The notes under the pieces were generated by a model. That model had not been told where the DNA came from, did not search any database, and saw only the letters and a list, made by a program, of their open reading frames with translations. Positions 53,493 through 57,632 of a stretch of 64,000 nucleotides of DNA are shown here, in pieces. A program made the translations under genes and the position numbers. Position 1 is the first letter of the stretch. Every line of letters begins with the position of its first letter. Origin of the DNA: Actinomycetota bacterium (GTDB lineage: Bacteria; Actinomycetota; Actinomycetes; Mycobacteriales; HKI-0501). The DNA lies in the NCBI GenBank assembly GCA_030840805.1, contig JAVEDU010000035.1, positions 1 through 64,000 of the forward strand, given 5' to 3'.

Positions 53493-53935
53493 AGGTCCTC
53501 CTTGATCATGACCAGCGCATCGGTGCCGCTGGGCTGGTAGTAGCCGCGCCGCACCCCGGTCACCGCGAAACCCCGGCGCTCGTACAGGTGCCGCGCCACC
53601 GGGTTGTCCGCGGCGACCTCCAGGGCGACCTGCGGGGCACCGCGATGCGCGGCCTCGGCGAGCAGCGCGTCCAGCAACCGGGACCCGAGCCCGGTGCCCT
53701 GGGCGGAGCGGCGCACGGCGATGTTCTGGACCCACGCCGAGTCCGGATACACGCACAGTCCCGCGTAGCCGAGCAGCTCGTCGCCGTCCAGCGCGACCAG
53801 GTACCAGCGGTCGGCCCCGGCCAGCTCGGACCAGAACATCCCGGCCGTCCACCGTTCCGCGCCGAACAGCTCGTCCTCCACCGGGAGCACGTCGTCGATG
53901 TGCCACCACCGCATCCGGGTGAGCTCCGTCGTCAC
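53489..53935 (-). CDS. rimI: Ribosomal protein bS18 alanine N-acetyltransferase
   Basis: A 148-residue GNAT acetyltransferase. The acetyl-CoA motif is [17 protein letters not shown] near residue 78 (Q-x-x-G-x-G type), followed by [18 protein letters not shown]. Its location between tsaB and tsaD is the standard place for rimI. GTG 53935 overlaps the tsaB stop (GTGA). The true substrate may be wider than bS18 in actinobacteria. Confidence 0.9.
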
Positions 53936-54609
53936 CCGAGCACGCTCTTCCGGGCGGCCGGCTCCACCGCGTCCGGGCGGCGCAGGTACAGCGGGGTCAG
54001 CGGCTCGGCCGGCGCGCCCGCCGCGACCCGGGCCGCCGCGAGCGACAGCAGCGCCGTGACGTCGGGGTACTCGGGACCGGAGACGGGCAGGCCGAGGACG
54101 TCCCCGTACAGCAGGGCACCGGCACCGACCGCGCGGCGGGCCCCGGACGAGGCGGCGAGCGGGCCGACGTCGGCCGGCCGGTTCACCGCGGGCTCGGTCA
54201 GCCGGTCGCCCGTACCGCTGTAGACGGCCCAGTAGACCTCGCGCCGCCGGGCGTCGGTCGCCACCAGGAACGGGGCGCCGTCGTCGGCCACCGCGGCGGC
54301 GAGCGCGTCCAGCGAGCACACGCCGTACGTCGGGATGCCGAGCGCGTCGCCCAGCGCCGCCGCGGTGACCAGGCCCACCCGCAGACCGGTGAACGGGCCC
54401 GGTCCGACATCCGCGGCCACCGCCCCGAGATCCGCCGCCGTCGCGCCCGCGTCCGCGAGGGACCGGGCGATCAGCGGGGCCAGCGCCTCGCCGTGCCTCT
54501 TGCCGTCGACGACGGTCTGCTCGGCGCGGACGCGGCACACGCCACCGGAGACGTCACCCACCCCGGCGGTGACGGCGGCGGACGAGGTGTCGAGGAGGAG
54601 TACCAGCAC
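53932..54609 (-). CDS. tsaB: tRNA threonylcarbamoyladenosine synthase subunit TsaB
   Basis: A 225-residue partner of TsaD, lacking its active site. It starts [18 protein letters not shown] and contains the family signature [13 protein letters not shown] near 72. I chose GTG 54609; the frame is open upstream to 54792 but without homology. It begins the tsaB-rimI-tsaD operon; the acyl-CoA ligase gene ends 59 bases upstream. Confidence 0.93.
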
Positions 54610-54668
54610 GACTCCCGAGACTAGCCGCGCCCGGGAGCGGCGACTGCCCCCGGGCGCGGCCGTACGCC

Positions 54669-56195
<1,527 letters not shown>

Positions 56196-56273: not shown

Positions 56274-57071
56274 CTACCGGGGCTGCGCAGCCTCCGCCGG
56301 GGTCGGCGGGCGGACGAACGGCCGTGCCCGTTCCTCCACCGCACCGATGTCGGCATAGTTCTGCCGGGCCGCCGTCAGCGACAGCGCGCCGTTCGGACCG
56401 CCGCGCACGACGTCCGCGTCCTCGTCGTCCTGCCCGTCGTCCTCCCAGGAACACACCGGACAGAGGTTGAACCCGCCCCGCTCCGGCAGCGTGACGTGCC
56501 GGCAGCAGGGGCACGGGTACGGGCCGTCCGCCGGCCCGCGCACCACCGAGAGCCGGTCGAGGCGGTCCACGTAGTCGTCCGCCCACAGCGCGGCGGAGTC
56601 GCCGAGCCGCCCGAGCCGGTCCGCCCAGTCACCGCCGTGTGGCACCAGGTCCACGGTGCGGACGTCGGTGTCCGTGCCCCGGGTGATCCGTACCTCGAGG
56701 TGGTCCCCGGCCAGCCGGTCCACCACGGCCTCGCCCCACTCGACCGCGGTCACCGCGTCGTCGAGCGTGACGTCCAGGTCGAGCGCGTCGATCTCCCCGG
56801 CGAGGTCCGGGGAGTCCCCGAGCCGGTACGCGTCCACGTGCACCAGCGGGACCCGCCCGCCCGGGTGGACGCGCGCGATGACGAACGTGGGGCTGGTGAC
56901 CGCGCCCCGCACCCCGAGCCCGGTACCGAGACCCTGCGCGAACGCCGTCTTCCCGGCACCGAGGGGCCCGGTCAGCAGCAGCAGGTCACCGGGCCGCAGC
57001 AGCCGGGACAGCTGCTCACCGGCCCCGCGGGTGTCCTCCACCGTGGGCAGCTCGGCCGACCATCCGGTCAC
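56274..57071 (-). CDS. tsaE: TsaE ATPase fused to a CPCC zinc-ribbon domain
   Basis: A 265-residue protein. Residues 1-150 are TsaE, the ATPase of t6A synthesis: Walker A TGPLGAGKT (34-42), TSPTFVIARVH, HVDAYRL and VEWGE. After a linker (150-183) comes a complete CPCC-family domain: YPCPCC (185-190), LPERGGFNLCPVCSWEDDGQ (195-214), GPNGALSLTAARQNYADIGA and a final VRPP. Its four or five cysteines should bind zinc. The reading frame is continuous. CPCC proteins are usually stand-alone, so this fusion is unusual. It lies 3 bases after the UDG gene's end region in a long operon. Confidence 0.85.
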   Translation of the reverse strand: MTGWSAELPTVEDTRGAGEQLSRLLRPGDLLLLTGPLGAGKTAFAQGLGTGLGVRGAVTSPTFVIARVHPGGRVPLVHVDAYRLGDSPDLAGEIDALDLDVTLDDAVTAVEWGEAVVDRLAGDHLEVRITRGTDTDVRTVDLVPHGGDWADRLGRLGDSAALWADDYVDRLDRLSVVRGPADGPYPCPCCRHVTLPERGGFNLCPVCSWEDDGQDDEDADVVRGGPNGALSLTAARQNYADIGAVEERARPFVRPPTPAEAAQPR

Positions 57072-57074
57072 GGC

Positions 57075-57632
57075 TCAACCTCCAAGTAGACGGGCGGCGT
57101 GGGCGAGATCCTCGCGCAGTGCCGCCATCGGCGCTCCACGGGGACCGAACCGGATCGCCGCCGAGGGATGGTAGGTGGCCAGCACCCGTCGGCCGCCGAC
57201 CTCGTGCACCACGCCGCGGGACGCCCCCAGCCGGACGCCGCGGCCCAGGAACCAGCCGACCGAGGTGAGCCCGAGCGCCACCACCAGCTCCGGGGCGATC
57301 AGGTCGAGCTGCCGGTCCAGCCAGGGGCGGCACCGCTCGATCTCCGGCCGCTTCGGGGCGCGGTTGCCCGGTGGCCGGCACTTCAGCACGTTCACCACGG
57401 CCACCGCGTCGCGGTCGAGCCCCGCCTCGGCGAGCAGCACGTCCAGCAGCTGACCGGCCTTGCCGACGAACGGCCGCCCGGCCAGGTCCTCCTGGGCGCC
57501 GGGCGCCTCGCCGACCAGCGCCAGCCGGGCGCCGCGCGGGGCCTCGCCGACCACCACGGTGGTCCGCGCGGCGGCCAGCTCCGGGCAGGCCGTGCACCCG
57601 GTCATCGCCGAGCCGAGGGCGGTCCAGCTCAC
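57075..57632 (-). CDS. Type 4 uracil-DNA glycosylase-like protein
   Basis: A 185-residue member of the family 4/5 uracil-DNA glycosylases, removing uracil from DNA. It has the Fe-S cysteines in CTACPEL near the start, VGEAPGAQEDLAGRPFVGKA (motif A), NVLKCRPPGNR and the C-terminal YHPSA motif. The length is normal. GTG 57632 overlaps the hydrolase stop by four bases. Confidence 0.9.
   Translation of the reverse strand: MSWTALGSAMTGCTACPELAAARTTVVVGEAPRGARLALVGEAPGAQEDLAGRPFVGKAGQLLDVLLAEAGLDRDAVAVVNVLKCRPPGNRAPKRPEIERCRPWLDRQLDLIAPELVVALGLTSVGWFLGRGVRLGASRGVVHEVGGRRVLATYHPSAAIRFGPRGAPMAALREDLAHAARLLGG

Follow-up and report, generated by a model that had tools for sequence, protein, structure and literature searches.

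The window analysed, a stretch of 64,000 nucleotides, carries a single open reading frame in which a TsaE domain runs on into a Cys_rich_CPCC domain (Table 1). The genes around it were found in the order alanine racemase, hydrolase, uracil-DNA glycosylase (UDG), tsaE-CPCC, acyl-CoA ligase-like gene, tsaB, rimI and tsaD, with the racemase, rimI and tsaD being named by eye, and the GTG start of the fusion gene lies three bases behind the UDG gene. The fused TsaE sits with tsaB and tsaD, as expected in Actinobacteria, and hydrolase, tsaE and tsaB homologues were clustered in 74 of 80 relatives. An excerpt of PMC5335608 describes co-transcription of alr through tsaD in M. tuberculosis. The UDG and ligase genes are extras inside the t6A cluster and are absent here from the genomes of the same family; one Frankiaceae MAG (L029) carries both, along with racemase, hydrolase and tsaE, but no CPCC gene. 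No Rfam match was obtained within the window, and a promoter and terminator scan round the fusion gene found nothing.

Table 1. Features of the tsaE-CPCC locus, in coordinates of the window
Feature	Position	Strand	Basis
tsaE-CPCC fusion gene	56274..57071	(-)	265 codons plus stop, GTG start
TsaE domain, residues 10-134	56670..57044	(-)	PF02367; TIGR00150
Walker A motif GPLGAGKT, residues 35-42	56946..56969	(-)	sequence; G35 and L37-T42 invariant in 30 TsaE rows
Spacer, residues 151-174	56550..56621	(-)	stop-free in all three frames
Trp163 codon TGG, 1 base from TGA or TAG	56583..56585	(-)	possible lost tsaE stop
Cys_rich_CPCC domain	56292..56519	(-)	PF14206
First knuckle CPCC (C187, C189, C190)	56502..56513	(-)	sequence, alignment
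Second knuckle CPVC (C204, C207)	56451..56462	(-)	sequence, alignment
Uracil-DNA glycosylase superfamily gene, just upstream	57075..57632	(-)	PF03167, 107.7 bits
AMP-binding (acyl-CoA ligase-like) gene, between tsaE and tsaB	54669..56195	(-)	PF00501, 331.3 bits
tsaB, start approximate	53932..54630	(-)	TsaD family model PF00814, 91.7 bits

A sequence-only reading of this DNA had described a TsaE protein running in frame into a full CPCC domain, and this was borne out, both Pfam domains being complete within the single 265-codon frame. More specifically, the TsaE domain was recognised by PF02367 (3.7e-30, 104.9 bits, cut-off 26.6) and by the NCBIfam TsaE equivalog model TIGR00150 (74.9, cut-off 60.1), while Cys_rich_CPCC was matched at residues 185-259 by PF14206 (4.6e-24, 84.4 bits, cut-off 24.5) over profile positions 1-74 of 75. 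The CPCC and CPVC knuckles and the GPNG...SL..AR.N segment pointed out in that reading were all located in the translation, the segment as GGPNG..SL..AR.N. Genome-wide searches of the source assembly, a draft of 4.46 Mb in 111 contigs that is 95% complete, returned the fusion gene as the single TsaE match and also as the single CPCC match. As the genome holds no other match to either domain, the fusion protein is expected to serve as its working TsaE.

All columns invariant among 30 aligned TsaE rows, of which the window supplied row 1, were kept in the fusion, the P-loop included, and solved TsaE relatives are available as 5np9, 5mvr and 6nak. The fusion shares the whole domain, the Walker A motif and the invariant columns with TsaE (YjeE), the t6A complex ATPase subunit type 1, whereas the typical protein is without the about 105 residues, including the CPCC domain, that the fusion adds. 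TsaE binds ATP, competes with tRNA for docking on TsaD-TsaB and resets the complex, as described in excerpts of PMC9654439 and PMC11648230. The TsaE part of the fusion is complete and probably works as usual.

In the CPCC half, the four cysteines of the two CxxC knuckles and the WEDD motif, all invariant across 18 CPCC rows, were kept, as was GGPN. The fused domain is 54-60% identical to six close stand-alone relatives from the order, which are 58-74% identical among themselves, and its end branch, at 0.68, exceeds all others in its half of a motif-filtered CPCC tree from which some loci, including the close L102 (W to R), are absent. Both knuckles, WEDD, GGPN and SL..AR are common to the fusion and the Cys_rich_CPCC proteins (PF14206; solved as 8ey3 and 8ey4). 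Those proteins normally stand alone, whereas here the domain is C-terminal and more diverged than its close relatives. The fused domain is intact at its core and more diverged overall, as would fit either relaxed constraint or a changed surface.

The two domains were folded from separate alignments; a mixed TsaE and CPCC alignment placed the CPCC rows over TsaE and was unusable. The model of the CPCC half reached a mean pLDDT of 80.5, and a sequence search linked this half to the solved 8ey3 and 8ey4 (1.2e-11). Foldseek comparison of the CPCC-half model with the PDB gave no match, the link to 8ey3 and 8ey4 being by sequence alone, and a literature search for these two entries returned one unrelated paper and none on the structures. 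The full-length model had a sound TsaE part, a predicted helix at residues 149-175 and a poor CPCC part, for which it had no aligned rows. The CPCC half probably folds by itself as a zinc ribbon, with zinc suggested by the four cysteines.

The place where the two halves meet was approached from both sides. TsaE relatives were taken as the best 80 of 548 loci, from named genomes, and in most of these 80 the TsaE frame stops no further than about 15 residues from query residue 150. The TsaE proteins of the two same-family genomes are 159 and 157 aa long, with tsaB following and no CPCC gene between. On the other side, the stand-alone CPCC protein L152, on a viral contig, probably begins about 17 residues ahead of its knuckle, at a point aligned with about residue 171-175 of the fusion. 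Taken together, the ends of the relatives and the L152 start place the junction in a stretch of roughly ten residues, between where TsaE normally ends and where CPCC normally starts. The TGG codon of W163 is one transition from TGA.

Other additions and losses are seen at this end of TsaE. A. aeolicus TsaE, unlike other TsaE proteins, has no C-terminal helix, as reported in an excerpt of PMC11648230, and in two Klenkia loci (L007:626-1564 and L020:3001-3927) TsaE runs in frame into a NUDIX domain (PF00293, 63.8 and 57.9 bits). The Klenkia proteins resemble the fusion in bearing an unrelated domain on the same TsaE end, but the domain is NUDIX instead of CPCC and occurs at two loci. The A. aeolicus and Klenkia cases suggest that additions and losses are tolerated at the C-terminal tail of TsaE. 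The TsaB-RimI fusion of M. leprae, mentioned in the excerpt of PMC5335608, is likewise a case of t6A operon genes running together, but it joins long-standing operon partners, whereas the partner of TsaE here is a wandering orphan gene.

A search for further TsaE-CPCC fusions and their taxonomic spread, as the sequence-only reading had proposed, brought up no second genome in samples of the order, class and phylum. The whole protein was searched against 397 order genomes, 394 class genomes and 396 phylum genomes, at E up to 1e-45, 0.001 and 1e-40, with matches in 179, 383 and 10 of them, respectively; the samples overlap in genomes and belong to collections that do not span all public genomes. 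A fused protein would be expected near the top of the match lists. Residues 1-265 were matched by the window alone among the matches listed for the order and for the class, and by the window alone in the phylum genomes; no match at E up to 1e-50 was obtained in 35 genomes of another family, all within the class sample. The fusion was found in 0 of the 80 named TsaE relatives and in neither of the two same-family genomes. When 81 TsaE frames (the 80 relatives and the window) were compared with 29 CPCC frames, the two domains shared a frame in the window alone, with one of the 29 CPCC loci, L096, giving no blastp hit at 1e-4; the order's CPCC matches beyond the fetched loci were covered by the whole-protein search alone. 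The loci read contained no separate adjacent tsaE and CPCC genes. Within the genomes sampled, the fusion is lineage-private.

Two kinds of candidate were set aside. Longer weak matches, extending for example to query residue 200 or 251 across one or two stops, were considered as possible split fusions. A tblastn search with the CPCC half found no significant match in 29 class-search loci (L113-L141; best E 0.14), and the longer matches were therefore taken as read-through of flanking DNA, a verdict drawn from L113-L141, similar rows of the order search not being read singly. A CPCC string at L048 was put down to chance, its frame containing no TsaE.

CPCC genes were matched in 74 of the 397 order genomes, the window's included, in 37 plasmid records and at 21 viral-contig loci. 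The neighbours of the stand-alone genes differ, with no constant partner in the 8 of 37 plasmid records that were read. It had been claimed that CPCC proteins are often near toxin systems; this did not hold at the 8 plasmid loci, none of which has a product named toxin, antitoxin or immunity protein within 5 kb of the CPCC gene. Nor was a CPCC gene seen by t6A genes in the 8 plasmid loci or the 80 tsaE loci, and PADLOC gave no match for the CPCC half. On plasmid p319 of Vibrio coralliilyticus (L182) the CPCC gene lies in a same-strand run of small GNAT, VOC, NUDIX and hypothetical genes, which we take to resemble an integron cassette array. A sub-group of CPCC proteins from the order (L106-L110), with a shortened inter-knuckle loop and WTDD or WTED replacing WEDD, forms a well-supported clade of its own. 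The literature searched contained no described function for CPCC proteins, PF14206 being named once, in one archaeal virus paper. The CPCC gene acts as a wandering orphan, patchy and mobile, and its chance landing behind tsaE is therefore plausible.

A joined frame in one draft genome has to be weighed against an artefact, and the sequence-only reading had itself named, as the case against the fusion, its confinement to one assembly with a missed stop or frameshift. The first part of that case describes what was found, the fusion being known from one assembly only with no second genome found; the frameshift part fell. Translation of the junction in all three frames revealed no stop over residues 151-185, the nearest off-frame stops lying at codons 107 and 232 in one alternative frame and at codon 147 in the other. 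As an indel could thus not have yielded two sensible genes, a frameshift was rejected and is practically excluded. With an indel ruled out, only a miscalled base at W163, Y167, S175 or Y185, whose codons are each one base away from a stop, could restore one, and a single such miscall is possible. G+C by codon position was 0.81/0.51/0.94 in TsaE, 0.78/0.58/0.91 in the CPCC part and 0.88/0.46/1.0 in the spacer, coding-like over its short length of 24 codons. That an assembly or base-calling error conceals a true spacer stop, and with it adjacent but separate genes, is in our view very unlikely: the single draft assembly of 111 contigs and the four near-stop codons would allow it, but the commoner type of error, an indel, is removed by the stop-free frames, and the composition of the spacer speaks against it.

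We consider it probable that the gene is a real, lineage-private fusion that arose when the tsaE stop was lost before a wandering CPCC gene, leaving a normal TsaE with the CPCC domain as a passenger. A small stand-alone CPCC gene would have landed directly behind tsaE in the alr-tsaE-tsaB-rimI-tsaD neighbourhood; the tsaE stop would have been lost, possibly and by the route we favour through a change of TGA to TGG at codon 163, and both genes would then have been made as one protein. The TsaE half would remain the ATPase that resets TsaD-TsaB in t6A synthesis, presumably with normal activity. The CPCC half would fold separately, as a probable zinc ribbon with bound zinc, would be tolerated thanks to the variability of the C-terminal tail of TsaE, and would do, if anything, its usual job, with no special role in t6A. 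The complete domains, their single copies, the stop-free and coding-like spacer with W163 one base from a stop, the position of the junction, the lack of another fusion in the genomes sampled, the patchy CPCC genes, the other TsaE tails and the long CPCC branch all argue for this. Against it, a pure passenger could in time lose the four cysteines, WEDD and GGPN, yet all are present; the fusion is in one genome, so there is no second for a test of selection; and the loss of the stop was not seen directly, with no separate-gene intermediate in the loci read.

The alternatives to a passenger give the CPCC half work of its own. It could keep a separate anti-toxin or anti-phage job, such as immunity, and be hitched to tsaE for steady expression. 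The patchy CPCC genes on plasmids and viral contigs would suit such a job, and in the solved 8ey4 the CPCC protein is labelled chain I, a letter that by custom may stand for immunity. With no toxin-named neighbour at the 8 plasmid loci, no PADLOC match for the CPCC half and no paper found on 8ey3 or 8ey4, we regard this as quite improbable. The CPCC half could also regulate or assist t6A synthesis, as a zinc or redox sensor or an RNA-binding ribbon that alters how TsaE goes on and off TsaD-TsaB or tRNA. Its cysteines are intact on the genome's only TsaE, an added domain could matter where TsaE and tRNA compete for the same TsaD-TsaB site (excerpt of PMC9654439), and the alr-tsaD operon of M. 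tuberculosis responds to oxidative stress (excerpt of PMC5335608). Such a role seems unlikely nonetheless, as the fusion is in one genome only, stand-alone CPCC genes had no link to t6A genes in the 8 plasmid and 80 tsaE loci, and the fused domain has drifted most. It would be a long shot that the ribbon senses zinc or oxidation and alters the dwell time of TsaE on TsaD-TsaB, with the t6A level tracking metal or redox state; stand-alone CPCC proteins elsewhere would in that case act in trans on this machinery.

The sequence-only reading had taken the fusion as a guide to CPCC function, in tRNA binding, t6A synthesis or zinc/redox sensing. The fusion itself stands on its sequence; the functional inference is unsupported because it draws on one genome, a scattered orphan CPCC gene and a drifted fused domain. 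A role of these kinds is possible, with nothing found that speaks positively for it. What is new here is the pairing of two known families, in a single fusion so far. A partner enzyme whose role is known usually makes a fusion informative, but a single genome gives a weak hint. Should a second independent fusion or an effect of CPCC on t6A be found, it would provide the first functional anchor for the common CPCC family.
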